A stretch of DNA of 37,865 nucleotides from Deltaproteobacteria bacterium. Lineage in GTDB: Bacteria; Desulfobacterota; Deferrisomatia; Deferrisomatales; BM512. Below, one piece after another: positions 11,891 through 31,426 of this stretch. Numbering within the stretch: the stretch's first letter is position 1; every line of letters starts with the position of its first letter. The stretch spans positions 1 through 37,865 of the forward strand of contig JAUVAU010000021.1 in NCBI GenBank assembly GCA_030591565.1, given 5' to 3'. The notes beneath the pieces were generated by a model. That model was not told where the DNA came from, made no database searches, and worked only from the letters and a program-made list of their open reading frames with translations. Made by a program: the position numbers and the translations under genes.

Positions 11891-14800
11891 ACGCATAATT
11901 GAGTGGTCGATAAACAACAAGTTCATGGTTCTCCTCGCCACTTTGTTCGCCATAGTGGGCGGCATACTGGCGATGATGAACATGTCGCTCGATGCGATAC
12001 CTGACCTCTCCGACGTACAGGTAATCATCTACACCGAGTATGCGGGCCAGGCCCCCCAGGTGGTGGAGGATCAGGTCACCTACCCGCTGACCACCGCGAT
12101 GCTCTCGGTGCCCCACGCCAAGGTGGTGCGCGGCTACTCCTTCTTCGGGCTCAGCTTCGTCTACATTATCTTCGAAGATGGGACCGATCTCTACTGGGCG
12201 CGATCGCGAGTGCTGGAATATCTCAACTTCGTCTCCGGCAGGTTGCCGCCGGGGGTGACGCCCTCGCTTGGCCCCGACGGTACCGGGGTGGGCTGGATTT
12301 ACGAGTACGTGCTCAAGGACACCACCGGCACCCATGACTTGCAGCAATTGAGGTCTATACAGGACTGGTACCTGCGCTACGAGCTGACCGCCGTGCCGGG
12401 GGTCTCCGAGGTGGCCGCGGTGGGTGGCTACGTCAAGCAGTATCAGGTGGAAGTGGACCCGGTGAAGCTCAGGGCCTACAACCTGCCGATCCAGAAGATT
12501 CGCGCAGCGATACAGCGCTCCAATAACGATGTGGGCGGCAAGCTCATAGAGATGGCTGAGGCCGAGTTCATGGTGCGTGGGCTGGGCTACATCCAGTCGA
12601 TCGAGGATCTTAATGCGATAGCCGTGGGGGTGGATTCCTCCGGCACGCCCATATTGCTTGGAAACATAGCCGACATCCACATCGGCCCGGAGCTGAGGCG
12701 GGGCGTGGCCGAGTGGAACGGCGAGGGCGAGGTAGCCGCCGGCATAGTGATCATGCGCCACGGCGAGAACGCGCTTGAGGTTATAGCGAACGTCAAGAAG
12801 AAGCTGAAAGAGTTGGAGAGCGGCCTGCCCGAAGGGGTGGAGATAGTGGAAGCCTATGATCGCTCCGGGTTGATAGAGCGCGCCATCGACACGCTCACCT
12901 GGAAGCTGATCGAGGAGATGATGGTGGTGGCGCTGATCTGCGTCATCTTCCTCCTGCACTTCCGCTCCGCCTTCGTGGCGATATTCACCCTCCCTGTGGG
13001 CATCCTGATCTCCTTCATGGTCATGTACCTTCTCGGCATCAACGCCAACATCATGAGCCTTGGCGGCATCGCCATCGCCATCGGCGTGATGGTGGACGCC
13101 TCGGTCGTGCTGGTGGAGAACGCCCATAAGCACCTTGAGCGGGACCGGGGAAAGAAGAGCCACCTGCAGATAATCGTGGACGCCTCCAAGGAGGTCGGCC
13201 CTGCGCTTTTCTACAGCCTGTTGATCATTACCGTCTCTTTCCTGCCTGTTTTTGCGCTTGAAGAGCAGTCGGGCAGGATGTTTAAACCGCTCGCCTACAC
13301 GAAGACCTTCGCGATGGGGGCCAGCTCGATCCTCGCCATCACCATTATTCCAGTATTGATGACCTTCTTTGTGCGCGACCGGACGCTGCCGGAGGGGATG
13401 ACGCGGCGCAACCGCGTGGGCGTCTGGCTCATAGCCATGTTGGGACCGCCGCTGCTGGTTATCGCGGGCGGACTCTACGGCATCAGCCTGCCCGATTGGG
13501 CGCTGACTGCGGCGCTGGGGGTGTCGATTTTCGCCGGAGTTTGCCTGATGCCCCAGAGGATAGTAGAGGAGAGGAAAAACCCGATCAGCCGCTTTTTTGT
13601 CTGGATATACAAGCCCTTCATCCATCTCGTGCTGAGCTGGCGGAAGGTCACAGTGCTCATCGCCCTGCTGGTGGTGGGGGCGACCTGGTATCCGCTCAGC
13701 CAACTTGGCAGCGAGTTCATGCCGCCGCTAAATGAGGGCGACCTGCTCTACATGCCCACCACCCTGCCCGGTGTGTCGGTGACCAAGGCGCGGGAGCTTT
13801 TGCAGCAGACCGACAAGATCATCCAGTCATTCCCGGAGGTCCACCACACGTTGGGCAAAGTGGGCCGCGCCGAGACCGCAACCGACCCCGCGCCGCTCTC
13901 CATGATCGAGACGACCATCGTCCTCAAACCCCAGATCGTATATGAGCAGGTCGCGGTGGACCGCTTCTTCTCCGCATGGCCCGGTTGGCTGAAGGGGCCG
14001 CTGACGCTGCTGTGGCCCGAGGTGGTGGATGGCGAGATGGAGAGCGAGTGGCGAAGGAAAGGGGTGGTCCGGTTCTTTTCGGGCTGGCCCGGTTTCATCA
14101 AAGCGCCGCTGGCATGGGTATGGCCCGAAGAGCGTTACATTACCACCGACGAGCTGGTGGACGACCTTGACCGCGCCATCCAGTTCCCCGGCTTGACCAA
14201 CGCCTGGACGATGCCGATCAAGACCCGCATCGACATGCTCTCCACCGGCATCAAGACCCCGGTGGGGATCAAGATCATGGGGCCGGACCTCCAGGTGCTC
14301 TCCGATCTGGGTGAGCGGATTGAAGCCGTCGTAGGCGATATCCCCGGGACGCTTTCAGCCTATGCGGAGCGGGTGACCGGCGGCAACTACATCGATTTCA
14401 ATATCGACAGACTTCAAATTGCCCGCTACGGCCTGACCGTGGCGGATGTGCAGGAGGTGATAATGAGCGCCATCGGCGGGATGAATATCACCTACACCGT
14501 GGAGGGGCTTGAGCGTTACCCGGTCAACCTGCGCTACAACCGGGAGCTGCGTGACGACCTGGGCAGGTTGAAATCGGTGCTGGTGCCGACCCCGACCGGC
14601 GCGCAGGTGCCGCTCGGTCAGCTGGCCGAGCTTTCGGTTCACAAGGGCCCGGCGGGGATCAAGAGTGAAAACGCCCGACGCACCGCCTGGGTCTACGTTG
14701 ACCTCAAAGGGGTCGATGTGGGCACCTACGTCAAGAACGCGCAGGTGGTTGTGGACAACAATGTCCAGCTGCCCGCGGGCTACTCGATCGTCTGGTCGGG

Positions 14801-27025: not shown

Positions 27026-28843
27026 TCACTCTGGCCGCTTGTGTTCCACCAGATCGAATGCACGAACCATACCGTCGCGCCCGCCGATGAACAAGCGACC
27101 GCCGAGCACCGCCGGGGTGGTGTGGATCGGTTCATCCAATTTTATCCGGTCCAGCACGCGGCCGCCCTTAGGGTCGATAATATAGAGCGAACCGCCAAGG
27201 GTAGCAACCGCCAGGTATCCGTTGATGAGAGCCGGGGCCGAGCGTATGCCGCCGTCCAGCTTCCTCGTCCACTTGGCGGTGTCAAGGGTGACCCTGGTAA
27301 GACAGCCGCCATCGTCGGCGACGTAGACCGCATCCTTCAGCGTCGCCGGTTGTGCGTACCAGGAGGGGCCGCAAAGCCCGATGGCCGCGCTCAAACTTCC
27401 CGTCGTGGGGTCGATCACGTTCAGCTGTCCGTTCTTGTCGCCCGCGTAATAGCGCCCTTCTCGCTCCACGACGCCGGAGAGGAGCGGGGCTTCGCCGGTC
27501 CAGGAGAAAGTCTTCTCACCGGTGGCGGGGTCAAGTAGCGCCAGTTCGCCGCCGCTTGAGGGGGCTATGATCTTGCCGTCTCCAGAGATTGTCAGGTCGG
27601 CGCGGTGGGGAGCACCGCCCTCGTAGGTCCAGACCTTGGAGAGTTTGCCATCCTCCACGTTGAACCCGTGGACGTTGCCCGCCCAGGTGGCTACAAAGAG
27701 CGTCTTGCCACGGAAAACCGGCGCGGACTGGCGGTGGTCGTCGGCGTTGGATTCCACCTCGGTGAAGGTGTCCAGCACCTCCAGCGTCTCGCCATCCAAC
27801 AGTGCCAGCTTTCTGTCCCAGCTTTGTACCGCCAGATAATTTTTGCCGGAGATACGCGTCAGCGACGGTCTTGCGTCAACCGTGTCGCCCAGCTTGGTCT
27901 GGGCTATGACCTTGCCGGCGAGAAATCCCAGCCGTTTGACGTTACCCGACCAGTCGGCTGCGTAGACACCAAACTCATCCGCCATTATGTCGGCATCGAC
28001 GAACCCCTCCATTTCGGTCTGCCAGACCTTGGTGAGCATCGGCCAGTCAGCGGGTCCGACCTTCACCGTTCCCGCTGCCGGGTTCCTCTTCAGGTCGGCG
28101 TCGGTGTTGGTCTCGGCGCGAAAATCCAAGGGTTCTTTCTCCCACTGGTTGCCGGTGGTGGAGACGGTGCCAACGTAGAAGTCGCCCAGGCGAAAGGGCG
28201 TGTCGTTGCCGCTGAACCGGTTGCGGGTGATGCGGCTCCCCTTGTCTCCCTCGAAGAGGAAGATGCCCCGGCGGTTGTCCCTGAACCAGGAGTTTTTTAC
28301 GACGTTTTGGGAGGTCCTGGCGTTGTACCCCTTGCCTGTATTGTTGGCGAAGAGGCAGCGGTTGAACTCTATGTGGCTCTCGCCGATGCGTGTGCCATCC
28401 ACGTTGAAGCGCAAGATCGAGTCTTCGATCTTGCCGGCGGCAAAATGCAGGTGCAGTCCCCGCGTGGAACCCTCTATCACCACGTAAGAGGCTGAAATTT
28501 TACCAAAATCGACGCGTATCTCGCCCCACCTGCCGGGCGACACCATGCCATCGGCGGTGGTGAAAATGATCGGCTTTTTGGGTGTGCCGCGCGCCTGGAG
28601 GTCGCCTTCCAGCACGATGGAGATCTCGCCCCAGCCGTCATTGTCTTCATCCTTGAAGGCGAACCGCACCTCGGTGCCAGGCTCGATTATCAGTTTTTGC
28701 CCACGCTCCAGCCTGAAGGTCTCCTCAAGGGTGACCACCCCCGACCACCTTATCGCGTCGCCATCGAAGAGCGAGCCAAGCGAGGCGCAACCAAAGAACA
28801 GCGGAAGCGCAGCCAAAAGCATCAGGGGGCGTGCAAGTCTCAC
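27026..28843 (-). CDS. Lipoprotein with beta-helix and PQQ-like beta-propeller domains
   Basis: A 605-residue protein with a lipobox (LPLFFGC, Cys near residue 19). Residues ~35-240 form a right-handed parallel beta-helix of the pectate-lyase/NosD type: GTPKKPIIFTTADG, IEGSTRGLHLHFAAGKIEDS, NVVKNSWFRDNRRGIFLFEG. Residues ~265-600 form a PQQ-like propeller of repeated blades (VYAADWSGNVKRL, LFVATWAGNVHGFNVEDGKL, YYAGDKNGQLNVIDPTTGSL, LAVATLGGSLYIIDPKGG, LFIGGRDGMVRAFDL). This is a binding or scaffold protein on the outer membrane, not a dehydrogenase, since no PQQ-site residues are recognised. GTG start overlaps the TGA of the upstream lipoprotein gene. Confidence 0.8.
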   Translation of the reverse strand: MRLARPLMLLAALPLFFGCASLGSLFDGDAIRWSGVVTLEETFRLERGQKLIIEPGTEVRFAFKDEDNDGWGEISIVLEGDLQARGTPKKPIIFTTADGMVSPGRWGEIRVDFGKISASYVVIEGSTRGLHLHFAAGKIEDSILRFNVDGTRIGESHIEFNRCLFANNTGKGYNARTSQNVVKNSWFRDNRRGIFLFEGDKGSRITRNRFSGNDTPFRLGDFYVGTVSTTGNQWEKEPLDFRAETNTDADLKRNPAAGTVKVGPADWPMLTKVWQTEMEGFVDADIMADEFGVYAADWSGNVKRLGFLAGKVIAQTKLGDTVDARPSLTRISGKNYLAVQSWDRKLALLDGETLEVLDTFTEVESNADDHRQSAPVFRGKTLFVATWAGNVHGFNVEDGKLSKVWTYEGGAPHRADLTISGDGKIIAPSSGGELALLDPATGEKTFSWTGEAPLLSGVVEREGRYYAGDKNGQLNVIDPTTGSLSAAIGLCGPSWYAQPATLKDAVYVADDGGCLTRVTLDTAKWTRKLDGGIRSAPALINGYLAVATLGGSLYIIDPKGGRVLDRIKLDEPIHTTPAVLGGRLFIGGRDGMVRAFDLVEHKRPE

Positions 28844-29994
28844 GGAACCGCCCTTATGAGTATCGTAATCCCGTCGGTGGTGTCGCCCTGGGTCAACTTG
28901 AAACCGGTGCGCGGCGCGGACTTGGCAAACCCGATCATCTCGCCGCTGCGTGGGGGGCCGCCGAGCCGCTGGCGTGCGCCCAGGTAGAAGGTCCCCTCCC
29001 GCGTGGTCGCAAGGGTGAAGAGGCCATCGGGGCCTGTGGGTTCGCCCACCTCCAGGGGTTCGTTCAGCATGCGTGGGTTGTCATAGAGGCAGGGCCGAAA
29101 GCCCGCAGCCGGGGTGCCGCCGCTGTCTGTCACGACCCCGGTGAGCGTGGCGAAACGGGTGAGGTAACGCGACATCTTCTCCTGCGGCGGTATCTTCACG
29201 ACCTCGAAATCCGCCGTGAGGTGCTCGCCTTCACGCAGCGCCAGGGGCAGGGAGGGATGGATTCCGAAGAGATCGCCGGAGACCAGCGGCCCGGTTTGTC
29301 GTGAGCCTTGCCGGAGTCTCGCCGCCAGAAAATATCTGCCGGGTTCAAGAGCTATTTCAAAGGAGCCATCGGGGCCGGTGGGCATGCTCTTCACGTAGGG
29401 AGGGCCACGAAAGCCCTTGTCGGCGCGCAGATAGACGTAGACGTTCGCCCCCTCTACCGGAGCGCCGTCCATGAGTATTTGGCCGCTAATCGCCTCAACT
29501 CCGCTAGAAACAGCAACGGGATGAACCGGGGCCAGGGGCAGGCTGACGCCGCGCTGGTTGTAGTGCGCTCTCACGGGGTTTCGGCCAAAGAAGGCGAAGC
29601 CTCCCCCAGAGCCGTCAGAGACTCCATTAGTGGAACGGGCGACGAGCAGGTATTTCCCCGGAGGGGTTTTAAGGATGAAGCGGCCCGCGTCGCCCGAAGT
29701 CGTGGTCGCGGCGGGTTCCTGTTTGTCCGAGGGGGTGATGAATTGGTCCAGCGTATACAGTTCGACAGTTGCGCCGGAGACTCCCCGGCCATTTCGCGAT
29801 ACGAGGCCGTCGATGGCAATCGGGCCGGTGTCCGTGCCGACGGCCCCCACGGCAGTACCCATGACGGATCCGCTCGACTGGCAACCGGCCAGCAGTAGGA
29901 GGATAGCCAAAAAAAGAAGGCTGCTTTTAAACAGCCTTCTTTTAGCTATCGCTTTATGTGCCTTACCTAGCGGCAACCTCACCGGGCTCTTCAA
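28840..29994 (-). CDS. Lipoprotein with repeated carboxypeptidase-regulatory-like domains
   Basis: About 384 residues at the longest reading. The lipobox is LLLLAGC with Cys at residue 38, followed by a Ser/Gly linker and three CarboxypepD_reg-like beta-sandwich units. Each has the GxV-x-G-x-PVxGA-x-V and PGKYLLVA/PGRYFLAA pattern: DGLVSRNGRGVSGATVELY, SGQILMDGAPVEGANVYVYL, and TGVVTDSGGTPAAGFRPCLY. Such domains bind surface polymers or act as stalks. The start is uncertain: 29994 is a TTG inside the preceding gene, and GTG 29982 (GAAGAG upstream) is an equal choice. Residues 18-29 are encoded by an intrinsic terminator hairpin (29909-29943), which is odd and probably lowers expression relative to the upstream gene. 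Confidence 0.75.
   Translation of the reverse strand: MKSPVRLPLGKAHKAIAKRRLFKSSLLFLAILLLLAGCQSSGSVMGTAVGAVGTDTGPIAIDGLVSRNGRGVSGATVELYTLDQFITPSDKQEPAATTTSGDAGRFILKTPPGKYLLVARSTNGVSDGSGGGFAFFGRNPVRAHYNQRGVSLPLAPVHPVAVSSGVEAISGQILMDGAPVEGANVYVYLRADKGFRGPPYVKSMPTGPDGSFEIALEPGRYFLAARLRQGSRQTGPLVSGDLFGIHPSLPLALREGEHLTADFEVVKIPPQEKMSRYLTRFATLTGVVTDSGGTPAAGFRPCLYDNPRMLNEPLEVGEPTGPDGLFTLATTREGTFYLGARQRLGGPPRSGEMIGFAKSAPRTGFKLTQGDTTDGITILIRAVP
29909..29943 (-). terminator. Strong intrinsic terminator inside the lipoprotein signal-peptide coding region
   Basis: A 12-bp perfect stem (29912-29923 with 29932-29943) with an 8-nt loop. On the minus strand the stem ends CAGCCTTCTT and runs into seven T residues. 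It lies about 20 bp after the stop codon of the FG-GAP protein gene, exactly where a terminator belongs, yet the lipoprotein reading frame is open through it. Confidence 0.85.
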
Positions 29995-31426
29995 TCGTCA
30001 GGGTCTGACCGGTCTGGACGCCTTCGATGATCTTGCGTGCGCCGCTGGGGAAGCGAACTTCCACGGTGTAGACGCTGGTTGAGGAGGCTCCGAAGTGGAG
30101 CTCCTGGGGCGGCTGGGCGCAAAAACCGCTGGAGGTCTGAAGGTCAGCCATGCCGACCAGCCTCTCGCCCTCGCGAACCCATACGCGTGAACCTATCGCC
30201 ATGGAGTTGGAGATCGTGCCGGAGAGGCGGACCTTGATCCAGTTGGCGTCATTGGTGGTGTTGAGGAACATCTTGTTGGGAGCGCCCCAGTTGACCACGT
30301 AGAGGTCAAGGTCGCCGTCGTTGTCGATGTCGGCGAAGCTGGTGCCCTTGGTGCGCACCGAGGAGCACATCACCGCCTCGTTGTCCTGGGCGATGTCGGA
30401 GAAGGTGCCGTCGCCATTGTTGCGGTAGAGCTGGTTGGCCACCTTGCAGTCGCCCTCGTAGAGGTCAAGGTCGCCATCATGGTCGATGTCGCCAAAGGTC
30501 GGTCCCTTGCCCCAGCCGGTGTTCGCCAGCCCCGAGTCCTGGGCGGCGGGGGGGAAGTTGCCGGCGCCGTCGTTGACGTAGTAGCCGTTGGCCCCCACGT
30601 AGTTGGAGACGAAGAGGTCAAGGTCGCCATCGCTGTCGGTGTCGGCAAACGCCGCGCCGAGGCCCCAGTTGGAATCGGAGACGCCGCGTGCGACGCCTTC
30701 GCTGGTGAATTTTCCCTTGCCGTCGTTGATGTAGAGGGTGTTCGGCTCACCGGCGGGGTAGCGGCCGTTGATCACGTAGAGATCAGGCGCGCCGTCGTTG
30801 TTCACGTCGGCCCACACGGCCATCCAGGACCAGGAGCGGTCGCCTACGCCAGCCGTGTCGGTGACGTCGGTGAAGGTGCCGTTGCCGTTGTTGCGATAGA
30901 GGATGTTCTTGGCGCCGACGCCGTAGTTGGCGAGGTAGAGGTCGATGAAACCGTCGTTATTGTAGTCGGCCGCGGCTGCTGCGTAGGTGAACTCCTTGGA
31001 GCCCACACCCGCCTTGTCAGTCACATCGACGAACTTGCCGTCCACGTTCTTGAAGAGCCTGTTGGCTTCGATCTCATAGCGACCGCCCTTGGGCACGTAG
31101 AGGTCGACCCAGCCGTCGTTGTCAAAGTCGAAGAAGACCGAACCCATTGCGAACCCGGCGTCGTCCAGACCTTCGCCCGCCTCACCGGTGGCGTCGGTGA
31201 AGACACCCTTGCCGTCATTTATCATGAGACGGTTGGCGCCGCCCTTGTTCGAGATGTAGAGGTCCCAGTCACCGTCATTGTCGACGTCGGCGAAAGCCGC
31301 GCCCTTGCCGTTGCCGGGGTCGCCGGTGCCCGAGGTGTCAGTTACGTCTTTCATCAGGCCCGTTCCCGCCCAGGCAGGTATTGCCATGACGGTTGCGATT
31401 ACGAGGATCAAAACAAGGCGTTTCAT
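29963..31426 (-). CDS. Exported FG-GAP/VCBS seven-bladed propeller protein with ASPIC/UnbV domain (CRTAC1-like)
   Basis: A 487-residue protein with signal MKRLVLILVIATVMAIPAWA. It has seven repeats of the calcium-binding form DxDxDGxxDLY, for example FADVDNDGDWDLYISN, FFDFDNDGWVDLYVP, ADYNNDGFIDLYLAN, WADVNNDGAPDLYVIN, FADTDSDGDLDLFVSN, FGDIDHDGDLDLYEGD and FADIDNDGDLDLYVVN: an integrin-alpha-like beta-propeller. The last ~90 residues are an ASPIC/UnbV domain (SRVWVREGERLVGMADLQTS, VEVRFPSGARKIIEGV). A strong AAGGAG site precedes the ATG. First gene of the exported operon and followed by a terminator, so it is probably its most abundant product. Function unknown; surface ligand or matrix binding is usual. 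Confidence 0.9.
   Translation of the reverse strand: MKRLVLILVIATVMAIPAWAGTGLMKDVTDTSGTGDPGNGKGAAFADVDNDGDWDLYISNKGGANRLMINDGKGVFTDATGEAGEGLDDAGFAMGSVFFDFDNDGWVDLYVPKGGRYEIEANRLFKNVDGKFVDVTDKAGVGSKEFTYAAAAADYNNDGFIDLYLANYGVGAKNILYRNNGNGTFTDVTDTAGVGDRSWSWMAVWADVNNDGAPDLYVINGRYPAGEPNTLYINDGKGKFTSEGVARGVSDSNWGLGAAFADTDSDGDLDLFVSNYVGANGYYVNDGAGNFPPAAQDSGLANTGWGKGPTFGDIDHDGDLDLYEGDCKVANQLYRNNGDGTFSDIAQDNEAVMCSSVRTKGTSFADIDNDGDLDLYVVNWGAPNKMFLNTTNDANWIKVRLSGTISNSMAIGSRVWVREGERLVGMADLQTSSGFCAQPPQELHFGASSTSVYTVEVRFPSGARKIIEGVQTGQTLTIEEPGEVAAR

Follow-up and report, generated by a model that had tools for sequence, protein, structure and literature searches.

A terminator-like hairpin in the window (the whole stretch of 37,865 nucleotides analyzed here) is probably an old, native intrinsic terminator of a gene with FG-GAP repeats and an UnbV/ASPIC domain, which has been absorbed into the signal-peptide coding sequence of the following lipoprotein gene and would act there as a partial terminator. 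The hairpin lies at positions 29909–29943 on the minus strand, as do the three genes around it: the FG-GAP gene (29963–31426), the lipoprotein gene (28840–29982), an open reading frame (ORF) with carboxypeptidase-regulatory-like domains that takes its signal peptide from the hairpin, and a PQQ-type beta-propeller gene (27026–28843) that overlaps the lipoprotein stop codon and keeps its place in the relatives. As far as the loci reach, the gene order common to the family is AAA, FmdE, ArsP, the FG-GAP gene, the hairpin, the lipoprotein gene, the propeller gene, TAXI and cysK, in which the label TAXI is a guess.

The original prediction had placed a perfect 12-bp stem and seven T residues within this range, 20 bp past the upstream stop codon. 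Sequence and folding agreed on the range, and by our measurement the stem begins 19 nt 3′ of the TAA of the FG-GAP gene (29965–29963). Read on the minus strand, the 5′ arm AAAAGAAGGCTG (29943–29932) and the 3′ arm CAGCCTTCTTTT (29923–29912, followed by TTT) form a GC-containing stem without mismatches around the 8-nt loop TTTAAAAG (29931–29924). The seven-T run (29915–29909), four residues of which are also paired in the stem, adjoins it directly, as is typical of intrinsic terminators. The 50 nt around the hairpin folded with −27.9 kcal/mol (z = −7.4), a value equaled by none of 200 shuffles. Folding also gave an extended hairpin (29902–29950, minus strand) with an outer stem, GATAGCT/GGCTATC, reaching across the T run, which was not obvious in the relatives.

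A strict terminator scan of 304 kb of the window genome returned 12 sites on the two strands combined, whereas two local shuffles yielded none. With looser settings, the same genome gave 21 sites over 576 kb and one relative 18 over 372 kb; seven of these 39 lay within called ORFs. As judged by inspection, only the window hairpin among those seven sat in a real-looking gene on its own strand, the remaining ones being antisense to their ORF or located in spurious frames, including one frame across a tRNA-like sequence. Other sampled terminators were often located 20–31 nt beyond a stop codon. Together with the covariation described below, the shuffles and the genome sample ruled out a chance hairpin. 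A repeated element was likewise ruled out, since a search allowing three mismatches located a single copy of the hairpin in the genome, and an assembly error is unlikely given the identical arrangement in four other assemblies. An Rfam search of the hairpin gave nothing above threshold, the sub-threshold matches being microRNA models only.

The lipoprotein ORF (28840–29994, minus strand) comprises 384 amino acids counted from the TTG at 29994, and its frame crosses the hairpin. Reading this frame bore out the proposal that the hairpin corresponds to residues 18–29 (K18–L29; AAA AGA AGG CTG TTT AAA AGC AGC CTT CTT TTT TTG). Its translation, KRRLFKSSLLFL, is continued by AILLLLAGC; the basic n-region and the opening residues of the hydrophobic core come from the hairpin, and the lipobox cysteine codon of LAGC (29881–29883, minus strand) is kept in the relatives. 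Basic n-region, hydrophobic core and lipobox cysteine, the features of a lipoprotein signal peptide, were all found: across the five genomes of the family the n-region carries a charge of +6 to +10, the 12-residue core has a mean hydropathy of 2.8–3.2, and the lipoboxes read LAGC, LLGC, LGGC, LGGC and FFGC, the last being a poor one.

None of the five genomes offers an ATG start for the lipoprotein. In-frame starts in the window are a GTG 17 nt, a TTG 29 nt and a TTG 11 nt before the upstream stop. The likely start is the GTG (29980–29982, minus strand), whose equivalent is the only canonical start in G001 and G003, where GAGGA precedes it by 6 nt; the TTG at 29992–29994 (minus strand) is the alternative, and G002 and G004 have a TTG at the same 29-nt distance (and another at 62 nt). 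In the window, 39–51 nt separate these GTG and TTG codons from the stem downstream. Described earlier as poor, the start is weak in the window species but has a good Shine-Dalgarno sequence ahead of it in two relatives. Initiation at GTG or TTG and translation through the hairpin are likely, as judged from the reading frames. If instead the lipoprotein started downstream, with the terminator an ordinary intergenic one, or if the gene were unexpressed, the hairpin frame would be untranslated. The missing ATG and the position of the starts inside the upstream gene would suit such an arrangement, and the window does have one start past the hairpin, the TTG at 29911, though this would yield only MAILLLLAGC, a 9-residue signal without basic residues. 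In four of the five genomes, however, the stretch from the hairpin to the cysteine is free of canonical starts, while the lipobox cysteine and hydrophobic core are kept, indels come in threes and the rest of the protein is conserved, which makes an untranslated frame quite improbable. A frameshift fusion to the upstream protein was also considered unlikely, as it would bury the signal peptide.

The comparison within this family of uncultured bacteria covered the window and four other genomes (two further genera), within a class sample of 12 genomes. Relatives retaining the peptide and lacking the stem had been named in advance as the observation that would speak against the original prediction; all five family genomes retain both. 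The hairpin occupies an equivalent position in each and the frame stays open across it, with hairpin sequences that differ between genomes. The lipoprotein of the window shares 45–48% identity with the other four, and the upstream FG-GAP protein 70–74% where complete. By inspection, the distance from the upstream stop to the AAA codon is 19, 16, 19, 19 and 19 nt and the hairpin measures 33, 36, 30, 30 and 33 nt in the five genomes, all length differences being multiples of three; the lipobox cysteine is invariant, and the hydrophobic core and the domain-bearing remainder are conserved across the family. Outside the family, the lipoprotein at loci L006 and L008 has neither the FG-GAP gene upstream nor the hairpin; the overlap is thereby linked with the FG-GAP gene. 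In genome G008, the lipoprotein gene follows ArsP, the FG-GAP gene and the hairpin both being absent. The overlapped state, known in five genomes, probably goes back to a single common ancestor.

In a set of 11 hairpins drawn from four families, pairing holds in 97% of cells and six of the 12 stem pairs have changed on both sides in a compensatory manner, in an alignment set by hand with loops masked, which favors pairing counts, and with related sequences that inflate the scores. In 500 shuffles, neither the observed pairing score nor the observed covariation score was attained, and the slid controls all scored lower. All 11 hairpins have a T-rich tail, with four T in a row in G007 and G010. 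Since codons of the basic n-region (AAA, AGA) and the hydrophobic h-region (CTT, TTT) are by inspection nearly complementary, signal peptides might form chance hairpins through their composition, without any terminator being present. Synonymous recoding of the five peptides, however, gave an equal or lower energy in only 3, 11, 2, 6 and 11 of 4000 trials. The amino acid sequence by itself is therefore insufficient to explain the hairpin, and a peptide-driven fold was ruled out. With the stems covarying and the outgroups carrying the terminator outside any signal-peptide code, we regard a compositional artefact as extremely unlikely. A single stretch of DNA thus appears to be conserved both as a terminator and as protein code.

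Families f2 and f4 have the same terminator behind their FG-GAP gene as well, with a different gene next to it; in f4 this gene encodes a membrane protein whose spermidine-synthase match is borderline, lying just under the Pfam cut-off. In family f25 (G032 and G069, the latter also with ArsP upstream), the FG-GAP gene and terminator are followed by a lipoprotein gene whose start is an ordinary ATG located past the T run. Family f25 resembles the state before the overlap, and f2 and f4 carry the terminator beside other genes. The simplest history would be that of a terminator between two genes, with the lipoprotein frame later beginning farther upstream and the stem becoming signal peptide, the direction of this change being drawn from few lineages. 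Three of 16 other terminators could be read as a signal peptide in some frame by a crude score, which lends weak support to a general rule of this kind. In f4, the membrane-protein gene after the FG-GAP gene (L068:2959–3050, and likewise in L069 and L070) was also seen to have no ATG near its start, and its nearest upstream in-frame GTG precedes the hairpin; the terminator may sit there in a second, unrelated coding sequence.

The reading as a terminator-like hairpin that doubles as signal-peptide code gained support, and such a hairpin is expected to lower transcription of the lipoprotein gene. With no usable start past the hairpin, a promoter beyond it could not produce the lipoprotein, and every useful mRNA would have to read through; provided that it causes any termination, the hairpin's position would therefore make it an attenuator. 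RNA polymerase would stop there on a fraction of transcripts, leaving mostly FG-GAP mRNA, and readthrough mRNA would yield the lipoprotein, initiated at the GTG or TTG overlapping the FG-GAP stop region, as well as the propeller protein. Less certainly, ribosomes finishing the FG-GAP gene close behind the polymerase would cover part of the stem and increase readthrough, and downstream expression would thus track upstream translation. Termination may be so efficient that only very small amounts of the lipoprotein are produced. A search of the window's own genome for tmRNA, which rescues non-stop mRNAs, gave weak matches below the cut-off.

Termination at a fixed efficiency, independent of translation, is the strongest rival to this scheme and would set a constant ratio between the FG-GAP protein and the lipoprotein plus propeller protein. 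The conserved gene order agrees with it, as does the presence of the terminator in families in which it encodes no signal peptide. In E. coli, however, the 19-nt spacing from the stop falls where ribosomes alter efficiency: terminators 17–18 nt past a stop codon had sequence-dependent efficiencies of between about 0.12 and 0.8 (PMC4824070). We consider the fixed version a serious possibility, held at somewhat less than even; the fixed and translation-sensitive versions are close in likelihood, and their confidences overlap with that of the core claim of an absorbed, partial terminator.

The original prediction had also assigned the control to ribosomes starting at the lipoprotein's own TTG or GTG, which would open the hairpin while translating the signal peptide and thereby turn on the very gene they read. 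Such autogenous attenuation, in which the lipoprotein mRNA would be completed only while its own export signal was being translated, is compatible with the start 39–51 nt ahead of the stem and with the stem lying, in all five genomes, in a frame that is presumably translated. In the pil1 locus of Streptococcus gallolyticus, downstream transcription increases when a leader ORF is lengthened into a terminator and translated, and a ribosome that arrives in time can thus control termination (PMC3894217). Translation into the terminator could act here too; pil1, however, uses a separate leader ORF with phase-variable repeats, and here the structural gene itself would be translated (PMC3894217). For an E. 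coli terminator 30 bp after a start codon, translation from that start cost only about 10% of the efficiency, which was explained by ribosomes rarely catching the polymerase so early (Li 2015, PMC4824070). This small effect, set against the range of efficiencies near stop codons, disfavors the signal-peptide ribosomes and makes those of the upstream gene the likelier agents (PMC4824070). Nor was an antiterminator common to the five genomes seen, the upstream folds of the 5′ arm differing among them. Autogenous attenuation therefore seems unlikely to us, as does the broader proposition that terminators in general supply ready material for signal peptides once the next gene moves its start farther upstream.

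The absorbed terminator shares a GC-containing stem, a T run, a position about 20 nt past a stop codon and a co-directional downstream gene with ordinary intrinsic (Rho-independent) terminators at internal operon boundaries; it differs from them in lying wholly within the frame of the next gene and encoding its signal peptide. In E. coli frdD–ampC, the terminator of the upstream gene is the attenuator of a downstream gene for an exported protein. The role proposed here is similar, but the frdD–ampC terminator precedes the ampC start codon, whereas the window hairpin lies inside coding sequence. As in the pyrBI attenuator, the terminator is within a presumably translated frame and ribosome position would matter; pyrBI, however, has a leader peptide gene with a UTP-responsive terminator (PMC4824070). 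A literature search of limited coverage turned up no described case of a signal peptide encoded by a terminator. One sequence would here be under two constraints, as an RNA stop signal and as a protein export signal, offering a testable system for the tolerance of terminators inside coding sequence and for the birth of new signal peptides.

Some further features were noticed along the way. A tiny conserved ORF with a good Shine-Dalgarno sequence is located just after the FG-GAP gene in L092, L093 and L094 of family f85 (MKKYLKPRVVGSGNVHPC), followed there by a hairpin and T run, and has a counterpart in G001 (MKKTTYVKPRVIGASTVHPC; L120, minus strand, near 12560–12620); it is possibly the precursor of a modified peptide, and an NCBIfam search of the G001 peptide gave no match. 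In G001, a strong terminator was also seen a few nucleotides past an apparent tRNA gene (L136:4735–4758, minus strand). In family f100, large palindromes resembling dispersed repeats follow the FG-GAP gene in L097 and L098, those of L097 being of the GGGGCGAGGCATGCCTCGCCC type.
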